Shown here: positions 33,502 to 38,271 of the stretch, piece after piece
Layout of the letters: every line of letters begins with the position of its first letter
Position numbering within the stretch: position 1 is the first letter of the stretch
From: Candidatus Gastranaerophilales bacterium
Lineage (GTDB): Bacteria; Cyanobacteriota; Vampirovibrionia; Gastranaerophilales; Gastranaerophilaceae
NCBI GenBank assembly: GCA_944326525.1
Contig: CALVEG010000011.1
Coordinates: 1 to 57,105 of the forward strand
Direction: 5' to 3'
DNA length: 57,105 bases
Notes under the pieces: generated by a model
What the model was told of the DNA's origin: nothing
Database searches by the model: none
Seen by the model: the letters and a program-made list of their open reading frames with translations, nothing else
Made by a program: the position numbers and the translations under genes

Positions 33502-35547
33502 ATGACTATTAAAAAACTTACTGTGGCAGCTGCAATTGCCGTTGGAATAGCAACGTGTTCCTTGAATCAAGCAATGGCGGCTTGCCCATGCGAACAGCCA
33601 ATGCCAACAGTAACAGGCCCGGCTTGTCCGTGTGAAGAAGCTCTACCTGTTGTAACAGGTCCCGCTTGTCCATGTGAAGCACCAAAAACATGTCCGAAAT
33701 GCAAAAAAGCGCTTCCAGACTGCGAATGCCAAAAACAAGATCCATGTGCCGATCCATGTGATCCTTGCGAAAAGAAGAAATCAGATTGCGACTGCCCTGA
33801 TGAAATCAGTTGTGATGAACCGGCAGAACCTGCTTGCGCAGTTTGTCCCGGAACAGGGAAACCTGACAGAAAAGATATGAAACAGGTTTACGGTTATCCG
33901 AATGCAATTTACGGTACTAACAACTACGTAGGTCAACCTGCTAATTCAATCTTCTCAACAGACACCCCGCTTGCCGGAACCCCAAGAACACTTTCATCAA
34001 ACGTTAGCGGTGTAACAGTTGCAACAGATGGACAAATTACAGGTGCAGCTTCACAACTTCCGTGCCTAAATGAAGATCCGACAAGACACAACGGAATTCC
34101 GATTGACAGAAATGAACAACTTATGGACGGAAATAATTGCCCGATTGATATTCAAACAGAAAACTCAATTGAAGCAATAAGAAAAAGTTTTGTTCCTTAC
34201 GAAATTAAAGGTGAAGGAATAACAGGTGCAGCCGCTCCGGCTTCAAATACTTGCATGTTTCCTGATGTTCCAAACAACTACTGGGCATCATGTGACATCG
34301 ACAAATTAGCTATCAACGATGTTGTAGTCGGTTACCCTGACGGTTTATTCAAACCTAACAGAAACATTTCACGTGCAGAATTTGCAACAATGCTTGTTAA
34401 AGGTTTTAACCTTGACAGCTGCGGATTATCTCACGAAAAATTATTCTCAGATGTTCCGACAAACAACTGGGCTAATGCTGCTATCGCTAAAGCCGTTAAT
34501 GAAAAATTACTTGCAGGTTACCCGAACGGAAAATTTGAACCTAACCACCCTGTAACAAGAGCTGAAGCTTTAACTTCAATTTCAAAAGGTATGACTTGCG
34601 ATATGGATCAGTGCAAAGCTGACGAAATCTTAAGCCAATACGCAGACGGTGCAAGCGTTCCGAATTGGGCAAGAATTCCTATCGCTAAATCACTTCAAAA
34701 CGGTGCTTTAAAAGATATGCCTAACCCGAATATGATTATGCCGAACAAAGACGCAACCCGCGCCGAAATAGCTTCTATGATGCAAACAGTTCGTGTTGCA
34801 TTAGGCTACGATACAAACCCGAAAACCGCAAACAGTGTTTGTCCTGCTTGCCCTGTAAACAAAAACGCTTTTGTTGAACAGGAAGAAATAGTTAAAATCC
34901 CGACTTTAAAAATCAAAATGAGAGATCAATTAACCGCAAAATCTTCTCACGTAGGTCAATACTTCAGAGCTAACACTCTTGAAGATATTACAATCAACGG
35001 TGTAACCTATCCTTGCGGATCAACAGTTACAGGTCAGGTTGTAGAAGTTATAAGACCATCAGGATGCGATAAAGGTGCTCTTAAACTTGCATTCACATCA
35101 ATTAAAAACGGTGATTGCAAAACAAACTTGCCAAAACAAATCTTGAAAGCACAAGTTAACAAATCAAAACAGGTTAACCCTGTAGCAAGATTAGTTGAAA
35201 TGCCATTTACTCTTGCCGGCTCACTTGTTGGTATAACGGGCCGTACAGTCGGTGGTGTTGTAACAAACCTTGGTAACGCTGTTGAAAACGTTTCTAATGA
35301 CGCAGGTTACATGTTAGGACACGCATTCCAAGGCCAATTCGGTGCTGCTGCACGTAACTTAGGTGATGGTCTTTGGGAAACAGTTAAAGCTCCGATTGAC
35401 ATTACAAGAACTGCTTTATCAGGAACTATGGGCTTGTTCCAAACTACAGGCGACGAATTTGCTTACCTTGTTGACCCTCGCGGATATAAAATATCTGCCG
35501 TTAACCCGAGAGAACACGTTACTATCGCTTTTGGTTGCAGTGAATAA
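33502..35547 (+). CDS. SLH-domain envelope protein with cysteine-rich N-terminus
   Basis: 681 residues. Signal peptide 1-27 (ending AMA). Residues ~28-115 are cysteine-rich with a repeated TGPACPCE unit and CPKCKK / CDPCEKKK. Residues ~245-430 contain three S-layer homology repeats (FPDVPNNYWASCDIDKL, FSDVPTNNWANAAIAKA, VPNWARIPIAKS; each with G-Y-P-x-G and T/SRAE). The C-terminal ~230 residues start with a beta domain (LKIKMRDQLTAKSSHVGQYF) and end in a Gly/Ala-rich helical part. SLH domains bind peptidoglycan-linked polymers and anchor envelope proteins in Cyanobacteria. Strong Shine-Dalgarno, own terminator: probably abundant. Confidence 0.85.
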   Translation: MTIKKLTVAAAIAVGIATCSLNQAMAACPCEQPMPTVTGPACPCEEALPVVTGPACPCEAPKTCPKCKKALPDCECQKQDPCADPCDPCEKKKSDCDCPDEISCDEPAEPACAVCPGTGKPDRKDMKQVYGYPNAIYGTNNYVGQPANSIFSTDTPLAGTPRTLSSNVSGVTVATDGQITGAASQLPCLNEDPTRHNGIPIDRNEQLMDGNNCPIDIQTENSIEAIRKSFVPYEIKGEGITGAAAPASNTCMFPDVPNNYWASCDIDKLAINDVVVGYPDGLFKPNRNISRAEFATMLVKGFNLDSCGLSHEKLFSDVPTNNWANAAIAKAVNEKLLAGYPNGKFEPNHPVTRAEALTSISKGMTCDMDQCKADEILSQYADGASVPNWARIPIAKSLQNGALKDMPNPNMIMPNKDATRAEIASMMQTVRVALGYDTNPKTANSVCPACPVNKNAFVEQEEIVKIPTLKIKMRDQLTAKSSHVGQYFRANTLEDITINGVTYPCGSTVTGQVVEVIRPSGCDKGALKLAFTSIKNGDCKTNLPKQILKAQVNKSKQVNPVARLVEMPFTLAGSLVGITGRTVGGVVTNLGNAVENVSNDAGYMLGHAFQGQFGAAARNLGDGLWETVKAPIDITRTALSGTMGLFQTTGDEFAYLVDPRGYKISAVNPREHVTIAFGCSE

Positions 35548-35652: not shown

Positions 35653-35709
35653 TATTAATTTTTTTATGCTAATCTTAATACAAGAATTAAATAGCAAGGA
35701 GGAAAACAG

Positions 35710-36864
35710 ATGAAATCCACTAATATCAATACTTTAAAGATAGGGGGGGGGGCAGAATCCAGTAATAACAACGCTTTCAACCTTACACAAAAAGAACATT
35801 TTTATAATGTAGATTTTTTGAGATTTATTGGTGCTTGCATAATTTTTTTATTTCATTATTTAAGAAATTATAGATTAGGTACTATTGATAAAATTTTTAA
35901 TAATCTTATTTTTACAGATACTGGATATCTTTTTGTTTCGTATTTTTTTATTATTGCCGGATTCTTTCTTATTTATACCTTCAATAAAAATTTGTCTGTT
36001 ATGGATTTTATTAAAAAGAAAATTTGCAGACTTTGGCCTTTAATTGCCTTTGGTATTTTGTTATACGGTATTGCTGATATTTTGGGTTTTATAAAACATT
36101 TTGATTTGTATGGAAATATATTATCCCTTTTATTTCTTGAAAATGCTGGTGTTACTTTAAAATGGGGTACCAACGGACTTGATTGGTTTGTTTCTGTCTT
36201 ATTTTTTGTTTCTATCTTTTATTTTTATATTTTTAAGTATTTCAAAAAAACTTCTTATAATTTTTTTATTTCTATTTTAGTTCTTTTAGGTTATACTTTT
36301 TTAGTTCATTCTACTAAAGGTTCTATGGGGGCTGCTATTAAAACTTTAAACTATTTTTTTAATCATGGAATTATTAATGGCCTCACTGGTTTGGGAATGG
36401 GTTATCTCATACATGAATTTTATCAATATTTGAAATCTCAACCTTTTGTTAAATCTCTTAAATCTACTGTTATTTACACCTTTATTGAAGCTTACTTACT
36501 TTGTTTTGTTATCTATGAAACGGGTTTTCATAAAATTCATTTTGATAACAAAATAATCTTAATTGTTGCTTTTGTTGGTTTGTTTTTAACTTTCTTATTA
36601 AAAAGAGGTATCATTTCTAATTTATTAAACAACAAATTTTCAGCTATTTTGGGACAATATACATTTTCTCTATATATGACGCATGGAGCATTATGGGTTT
36701 ACCTTAAACAATTAATTCTTCTACATAAAAGTCTTTGTGTTGCGCATCCTTATTTGTGTCTTTTGGGATGTTTTATAACTTGTTTTATTTTTGCAATTTT
36801 AACTTATCACTTTGTAGAAGTGCCGGCTGGTAAATTTCTTAAAAAGAAATTTTTCCCGCAATAA
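35710..36864 (+). CDS. Acyltransferase-3 family membrane protein with G10 tract (candidate phase-variable gene)
   Basis: 384 residues, about ten membrane helices. The acyltransferase-3 signature begins at VDFLRFIGACIIFLFHY (~37), with WFVSVLFFVSIF and a late helix containing FSLYMTHGALWVYL. These enzymes acetylate or succinylate exported sugars (O-antigen, exopolysaccharide, lipid-linked glycans) at the inner membrane. Codons 11-14 hold ten consecutive G (35743-35752). With ten G the frame is open; nine G leads to TAG after ~25 codons and eleven G to TAA within a few codons. AAGGAGG precedes ATG. Codons are strongly T-ending compared with neighbours, suggesting acquisition from elsewhere. Confidence 0.88.
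   Translation: MKSTNINTLKIGGGAESSNNNAFNLTQKEHFYNVDFLRFIGACIIFLFHYLRNYRLGTIDKIFNNLIFTDTGYLFVSYFFIIAGFFLIYTFNKNLSVMDFIKKKICRLWPLIAFGILLYGIADILGFIKHFDLYGNILSLLFLENAGVTLKWGTNGLDWFVSVLFFVSIFYFYIFKYFKKTSYNFFISILVLLGYTFLVHSTKGSMGAAIKTLNYFFNHGIINGLTGLGMGYLIHEFYQYLKSQPFVKSLKSTVIYTFIEAYLLCFVIYETGFHKIHFDNKIILIVAFVGLFLTFLLKRGIISNLLNNKFSAILGQYTFSLYMTHGALWVYLKQLILLHKSLCVAHPYLCLLGCFITCFIFAILTYHFVEVPAGKFLKKKFFPQ
35743..35752 (+). repeat. Homopolymer G10 in coding sequence
   Basis: Ten G in a row inside the acyltransferase gene. It is by far the longest G or C run in this AT-rich window (others are five or fewer). Slippage here would switch the gene on and off. Confidence 0.9.
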
Positions 36865-36891
36865 GCGTAATTAAACTTTGTTTTATATATG

Positions 36892-36930
36892 AAAAAAGAT
36901 GTAACTGTTTGTTACATCTTTTTATTTTTA
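36892..36930 (+). terminator. Terminator between the acyltransferase gene and der
   Basis: AAAAAAGATGTAAC pairs with GTTACATCTTTTT (5-nt loop) and runs into T-rich sequence. The der promoter follows immediately. Confidence 0.88.
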
Positions 36931-36945
36931 TGCTACACTTGTCTT
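36931..36945 (+). promoter_or_regulatory. Extended -10 giving a leaderless der mRNA
   Basis: TGC-TACACT (36931-36939) is followed by 6 nt and ATG 36946; no Shine-Dalgarno. The start codon itself would be the 5' end of the message. Confidence 0.6.
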
Positions 36946-38271
36946 ATGGAAAGAAAACCAACAGTTGCAATAGTCGGAAGACCTAACGTCGGCAAATCCA
37001 CCTTTGTTAATCGTCTTTTGGGTTCAAGAAACTCTATCGTTGACGATCAACCCGGGGTTACTCGTGACAGGATTTATTTCGATGTTGAATGGCAAAATAA
37101 ACCTTTTACTGTCATTGATACAGGTGGTATTGTTCCTGGTGATGAAGATGAGATTATGATTTCTATTTTCGATCAGGCTAGAATTGCTTGCGATGAAGCT
37201 GATAAAATCATCTTTCTTGTCGACGGCAAAGATGGTGTTAATCCTGTTGATTATGACATCGCAAATATCCTAAGACAATCTGGAAAACCCGTTATCCTTG
37301 CTGTTAACAAGCTTGACAACCCTGAATCACTTTATATGATTAACGATTTTTACTCTCTTGCACTTGGTGATCCTGTCGGAATTTCAGCTCTCCACGGAAG
37401 CGGTGGTGTTGGTGATCTTCTTGATTTAGTTACCGAGGATTTTTCTGATGACATTGTTGAACAAGAAGATGATACTATCAGAATTGCAATTGTCGGAAGA
37501 CCTAATGCGGGTAAATCTTCCATCGTAAATAGTTTGCTAAATGAAAATAGAGTAATCGTTTCGGATGTTTCAGGAACAACCCGCGACAGCATTGACAGCC
37601 GTATAACTTACAAAGATAACGAATTTATTATTGTAGACACCGCAGGTATCAGAAAAAAAGCTAAAGTTGAATACGGAGTTGAAAAATTCGCCGTTGACCG
37701 CGCAATCCGCTCTATAAAAGATTGCAATGTAGCACTTCTTGTAATTGATGCTAAAGAAGGGATTTCCGATCAGGATAAAAAAATTGCCTCTATTATACTT
37801 GAAGCAGGAAAAGGTATTATTATCGCTGTCAACAAATGGGATTTAATCGAAGACAAAAAAGCAAATACTATGAACCAGTTCGACAAAAAATTGTCCGCAG
37901 AAATCCCATTCCTTGAATTTGCACCTAAAATTTATATCTCGGCTCTCACTCGCCAAAGATTACCGCAAATTTTTGAAAAAGCTCAGGAAGTTTATGCTCA
38001 ATGCACAAAACGTGTTTCAACAGGGCTTTTAAATAAAGTTATGAAGGAGCTTTATGCTCTTAATCCGCCGGCGACAGTTAAAGGCAAACGTTTGAAAATT
38101 TTATACACTACTCAATCAGGTGTTTGTCCGCCGACTTTTGTAATTTTTGCTAACAATGCGGATTTACTGAAAGATCACTACAAAAGATATATTGAAAATA
38201 AACTTAGAGAAGCCTTTGGATTTTTCGGTTCACCTATAAGAATTGCAGTTAGAGAAAGAAGCGAAAAATAA
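36946..38271 (+). CDS. der: Ribosome assembly GTPase Der
   Basis: 441 residues from ATG 36946 (the longer frame starts inside the upstream terminator hairpin). Two GTPase domains in tandem: GRPNVGKST with DTGG and NKLD, then GRPNAGKSS with DTAG and NKWD, followed by the KH-like C-terminal domain. Needed for 50S ribosomal subunit assembly. Preceded by a -10 element and no ribosome site. Followed by a GC-rich terminator. Confidence 0.96.
   Translation: MERKPTVAIVGRPNVGKSTFVNRLLGSRNSIVDDQPGVTRDRIYFDVEWQNKPFTVIDTGGIVPGDEDEIMISIFDQARIACDEADKIIFLVDGKDGVNPVDYDIANILRQSGKPVILAVNKLDNPESLYMINDFYSLALGDPVGISALHGSGGVGDLLDLVTEDFSDDIVEQEDDTIRIAIVGRPNAGKSSIVNSLLNENRVIVSDVSGTTRDSIDSRITYKDNEFIIVDTAGIRKKAKVEYGVEKFAVDRAIRSIKDCNVALLVIDAKEGISDQDKKIASIILEAGKGIIIAVNKWDLIEDKKANTMNQFDKKLSAEIPFLEFAPKIYISALTRQRLPQIFEKAQEVYAQCTKRVSTGLLNKVMKELYALNPPATVKGKRLKILYTTQSGVCPPTFVIFANNADLLKDHYKRYIENKLREAFGFFGSPIRIAVRERSEK

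Follow-up and report, generated by a model that had tools for sequence, protein, structure and literature searches.

A homopolymeric tract of ten G at positions 35743..35752 (+ strand) very probably serves as the slipped-strand phase-variation switch of an acyltransferase-3 (AT3) gene, and belongs to a clade-wide set of poly-G contingency genes that are chiefly prepilin-like. The tract lies in the window, by which we mean the whole 57,105-base stretch that was analysed, contig 11 of the 27-contig, 1.945 Mb genome of a Candidatus Gastranaerophilales bacterium. We favour a slippage switch because this genome holds seven such tracts against about 0.5 expected, because of their layout in front of long open reading frames (ORFs), because related genes differ in phase while their OFF alleles stay intact, and because of a recently exchanged block in two related genomes (G005 and G006). 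The window tract is thus a single member of a far larger, mainly prepilin-directed system.

In the proposed mechanism, the gain or loss of one G at replication would bring the ATG-initiated leader peptide, MKSTNINTLKI-GGG, into frame with the AT3 protein or take it out of frame. The enzyme would act at the inner membrane, so that some cells would acylate its substrate and others would not. As assembled, the window gene is ON, and the prepilin-like genes, as the main targets of the system, are usually OFF and one slip from ON. We infer both the switching within populations and its effect on surface structure.

The G10 tract and its acyltransferase gene

The ten G reported by the sequence-only reading are present, and they form the sole run of G or C longer than five bases in the window, where a first-order expectation gives 0.001 runs of G of at least ten. 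The tract occupies codons 12-15 (nucleotides 34-43) of an ORF at 35710..36864 (+ strand), not codons 11-14 as had been proposed, and a ribosome-binding site, AAGGAGG, is found at 35696..35702 (+ strand), 7 nucleotides 5' of the ATG. At ten G the frame is open for all 384 codons, as the earlier reading had it, and only lengths such as 7, 10 and 13 leave the gene open. Eleven G bring in a TAA stop at codon 19, again as predicted. Nine G do lead to the predicted TAG, but this stop falls 19 codons past the tract (codon 34) rather than after about 25 codons.

The assignment of the 384-residue product to the AT3 family was borne out by a match to PF01757 (E=2e-22, 80.2 bits; curated cut-off 31). AT3 proteins share an absolutely conserved R-X10-H motif and a second motif on the cytoplasmic face, RXXR, that is highly but not absolutely conserved (PMC9833829). 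The first is present in the first helix of the window protein (LRFIGACIIFLFH), its R and H columns being common to the aligned relatives; the RXXR position reads K-X-X-R (KICRLWP) in the alignment. The gene stands alone between two genes that lie outside the switch. Upstream is a gene for an SLH-domain protein (33502..35547, + strand; PF00395, E=9.8e-28) and downstream an ORF for a putative Der/EngA-like GTPase (36889..38271, + strand), so named from two GTPase repeats in its sequence and probably starting at 36946. No recognisable glycan locus was found around the acyltransferase gene among the ORFs of the window.

Homologs of the AT3 gene were found in genus-mates and in MAGs labelled Candidatus Gastranaerophilales or uncultured bacterium, and viral contigs yielded neither an AT3 relative nor the leader motif. 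Six AT3-family genes, the window's included, carry a tract right behind a short leader, with lengths of 9, 9, 10, 13, 13 and 14, and all six retain the downstream ORF and the first-helix motif. Together they span all three phases: the window gene (G10) and L077 (G13) are in frame, while two genes close together in G002 (L070; G9 and G14), L071 (G9, with a non-canonical SD) and L074 (G13) are out of frame, the downstream ORF being intact in 4/4 of these. A seventh gene (L076) holds an interrupted tract remnant, GGTGGGG, which should lock it in frame, and three others (L072, L073 and L075) are free of any tract. Two AT3-like genes have a tract in mid-gene: in G003 a G12 separates halves that are both open but out of frame with each other, this product falling under the PF01757 cut-off at 24.6 bits, and in G022 a G14 is in frame. 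Phase in the AT3 family looks free to vary from species to species. Comparison therefore gives good support to the proposal that a 5'-terminal tract would turn an AT3 gene on and off: six such genes carry the tract in the same place, in three phases and with intact ORFs, and genes with tracts occur widely in the genus and the family.

Poly-G tracts in the genome, genus and family

A search of the whole genome for other tracts, which the sequence-only reading had recommended, brought the total of G or C tracts of at least nine to seven, against 0.49 expected (Poisson p ~9e-7); none of exactly eight was found. Three of the seven (p=0.003) share a layout of SD, start codon, tract and long ORF. 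These are the AT3 gene (G10, ON), a 1396-residue ORF that is prepilin-like by sequence features, a Pfam scan of it having given no match (G11, ON), and a second prepilin-like gene (G11, OFF), which would be in frame at ten. The remaining four lie between genes, except for one that is antisense within the 3' end of a short ORF.

Tracts of at least nine are present in 13/14 genus-mates and in 159 of the 191 family genomes, where their number ranges from one to more than 100 per genome. A class-wide sample included one genome of the family with 176 tracts; most other families had few, with exceptions. Genomes with more N_methyl (PF07963) matches also have more tracts (Spearman 0.89). Tract surroundings were inspected in nine genomes (G002, G003, G005, G006, G010, G013, G034, G109 and G155). 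Many tracts of the window's genus (g1), as well as of G034, G109 and G155, lie just 3' of an SD and start codon and 5' of a prepilin-like ORF (..FTMAEVLITLGIIGIVAAMTLP..), and the N_methyl and IV_pilin_GFxxxE assignments of example genes were confirmed by Pfam and NCBIfam. The full layout was seen at 29/29 tracts in G010, 31/45 in G003, 17/32 in G013 and 11/19 in G006, as against ~5% of random positions; it was mostly absent from the tracts sampled in G026 and G111.

Genes other than prepilins also bear tracts, including a GT8 glycosyltransferase gene in G003 (E=2e-45) and DNA methyltransferase genes in G006. A GT8-family gene (PF01501) on the minus strand of L100 (G003:C4:171500-176500) has a G10 near its start and is in frame. 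The minus strand of L149 (G006:C8:21200-33300) encodes several DNA methyltransferases in an array, each gene with a G tract in its middle part. Of three related N6_N4_Mtase-type genes, those with G9 and G12 are out of frame and the one with G10 is in frame; a C5 methylase gene with G10 is out of frame. From its sequence this array is a candidate phase-variable methylation system. Many genes of G003 (L079-L114) have in-frame stretches between the tract and the prepilin domain (RHSGLDPESI.., DSGSEAGMT..) that resemble translated interspersed repeats. A G10 at L217 (G026:C9:31500-35600) is followed immediately by an open frame of 672 codons that has adhesin-like repeats (..NGGTTFSKNSAAVSGGAVYN..) and is out of frame relative to the nearest ATG.

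The best direct evidence obtained for a fast-changing tract is a ~2.65 kb block carrying a tract-bearing prepilin gene in G006 (L155) and G005 (L156). The two copies differ by 4 substitutions amid strongly diverged surroundings and thus appear to have been recently exchanged between the two species, yet their tract region shows three indels, one copy being in frame at G12 and the other out of frame at G13: the tract region has changed faster than the rest. For orthologous prepilin-like genes found OFF both in G005 and in the genome of the window, dN/dS is 0.17 over 253 codons, so genes of this kind are in use rather than decaying. All such comparisons were made on draft assemblies, one genome per species, in which tract lengths may be off by one. 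In G109, two-base N gaps, one of them flanked by an extra base, lie inside the prepilin poly-G tracts of L204, L205, L207 and L209, which suggests that the assembler was unable to settle tract length; in G007, some 10 of the 37 tracts lie less than 400 bases from a contig start, which suggests that the tracts or their repeated flanks break the assembly. A loss of mismatch repair was rejected: both MutS and MutL turned up in every genus-mate and in nearly all relatives searched.

Default phase, a possible translational lock and rival readings

Across a genus set of 104 loci, taken from seven genomes plus two AT3 loci from MAGs and related to one another, hence not independent, 85 have one G too many, 11 are in frame and 8 have one G too few. 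The bias toward one G too many is present at 11, 12 and 13 G alike; therefore it is the phase, not the length, that is conserved. In the shared out-of-frame phase a stop mostly follows 1-4 codons past the tract. Paralogs with similar flanks are usually equal in the distance from ATG to ORF, and length differences between them are rare. A shared OFF phase (85/104) combined with rare length differences is not what free, fast slippage alone predicts. The presence of MutS and MutL likewise weighs against the slippage reading. In G034, of another genus, 20/23 loci are one G short and 3, all of them G11, are in frame, the third phase being absent. Common to both genera, as read from the assembled sequences, are an OFF default one slip from ON and a stop soon past the tract. 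Selection against constitutive expression could explain both biases: tracts would accumulate next to the ON length, above or below it according to where the lineage started. A fixed mutational equilibrium length was rejected as the origin of the shared phase, which is kept at 11, 12 and 13 G; universal +1 frameshifting is disfavoured by the opposite phase in G034; and an alternative start in the ORF frame was rejected because at several loci no such codon stands between the tract and the last stop before it.

A pentamer complementary to the SD, CTCCT, occurs no more than 45 nucleotides 3' of the tract in 82/124 prepilin loci, compared with 3% in shuffles. All three frames relative to the prepilin ORF are represented, and the pentamer is therefore seemingly kept as nucleotide sequence. 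At the neighbouring base, C-G pairs occur 51 times, A-T pairs 10 times and mismatches 17 times, and a permutation test found a modest covariation of SD and anti-SD (6.02 versus 5.78, p=0.0045). Folding of the groups of genus g1 with at least three prepilin loci predicted SD pairing of 0.33-0.79 versus 0.18-0.27 after shuffling; mean pairing of the SD with downstream sequence was 0.60-0.79 in G003, G005, G010 and G013, and 0.18-0.26 once the downstream sequence was shuffled. Folding of the G034 loci gave no support for SD/anti-SD pairing (0.22 versus 0.32 shuffled). In the window's own genome the motif is present at one of the two prepilin-like loci (SD pairing 0.96) and absent from the AT3 gene (SD pairing 0.11).

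These observations prompt a tentative model, rather doubtful as it stands, in which each genome carries tens of prepilin-like genes, each behind a 5' module, with a default one slip from ON and a frame-dependent translational lock. The module would comprise an SD, a short leader and a tract of G9-G15, followed by a default-frame stop and, at most loci, the anti-SD. An SD/anti-SD hairpin would shut the ribosome site in the OFF frame, and ribosomes reading through in the ON frame would hold the hairpin open, coupling the lock to slippage. The window acyltransferase would be a simpler member, devoid of the lock.

The strongest competitor to slipped-strand switching, though an unlikely one, is programmed slippage, in which a ribosome or RNA polymerase slipping at the G run makes a fixed, small share of full-length product and tract length is not switched. 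It would accommodate the single out-of-frame phase of the 85/104 genus g1 loci at every length from 11 to 13, the stop that mostly stands 1-4 codons past the tract in that phase and the purifying selection on out-of-frame ORFs. A programmed signal is harder to reconcile with the opposite phase of G034, whose 20/23 loci are one G short and none one too many, with the occurrence of in-frame copies, or with AT3 genes in all three phases, the window's own being in frame.

Less probable still is a tract that is inert or artefactual, a product of chance, hitch-hiking or assembly error that never switches: the N gaps inside the G109 tracts do make lengths uncertain, but the enrichment and position of tracts, their conservation from species to species and from one gene family to another, and the intactness of OFF alleles all speak against it. 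We give least credence, as very improbable, to a DNA-level signal, such as a G-quadruplex, for recombination or gene conversion by which 5' cassettes would pass between prepilin paralogs, with any effect on frame incidental. Near-identical leaders do stand on paralogs with differing mature parts, and the block recently exchanged between G005 and G006 encloses a tract. Yet tracts are placed directly behind start codons with an open frame kept into the ORF, they occur in the unrelated AT3, GT8 and DNA methyltransferase families, and AT3 genes, being single- or few-copy, offer no evident partner for conversion.

Relation to known contingency systems

Poly-G phase variation controls pilC, a pilus component of Neisseria. 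Neisseria haemoglobin receptors vary in phase through poly-G as well (PMC3786947), and the likeness lies in poly-G within the reading frames of surface proteins; here, by contrast, the pilin-like subunits are targeted directly, with tens of them in a genome and a separate tract for every one. Campylobacter and Helicobacter canadensis possess poly-G/C contingency genes (PMC6321876, PMC8355987, PMC2823697) that resemble the present set in their intragenic homopolymeric tracts, many genes per genome and ON/OFF frames; the differences are another phylum, prepilin-like genes as main targets, a shared default phase and the presence of both MutS and MutL. Phase-variable AT3 O-acetyltransferases are known as Haemophilus influenzae oafA and Salmonella oafB, oafB being under epigenetic control and the H. 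influenzae gene carrying tetranucleotide repeats (PMC9558356). The window gene is likewise an AT3 enzyme, but its phase variation, as seen from sequence alone, would be by a G tract.

Poly-G slippage and phase-variable AT3 genes are thus already known (PMC6321876, PMC8355987, PMC2823697, PMC9558356). What the present analysis adds is the lineage concerned, how large the prepilin set is, the default phase that its loci have in common, and the SD-complementary motif. The literature searched, most subscription journals being outside it, contained no report of phase variation in Gastranaerophilales; the one paper in it to mention both Melainabacteria and phase variation deals with flagellin diversity.

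Most known contingency loci driven by slippage come from pathogens. Dozens of them in a non-photosynthetic cyanobacterial lineage that inhabits animal guts suggest that its cells differ in their combinations of pilin-like proteins and envelope modifications. This would bear on phage resistance, on host adhesion and on strain-level metagenomics, the last because consensus MAGs will call many such genes broken.
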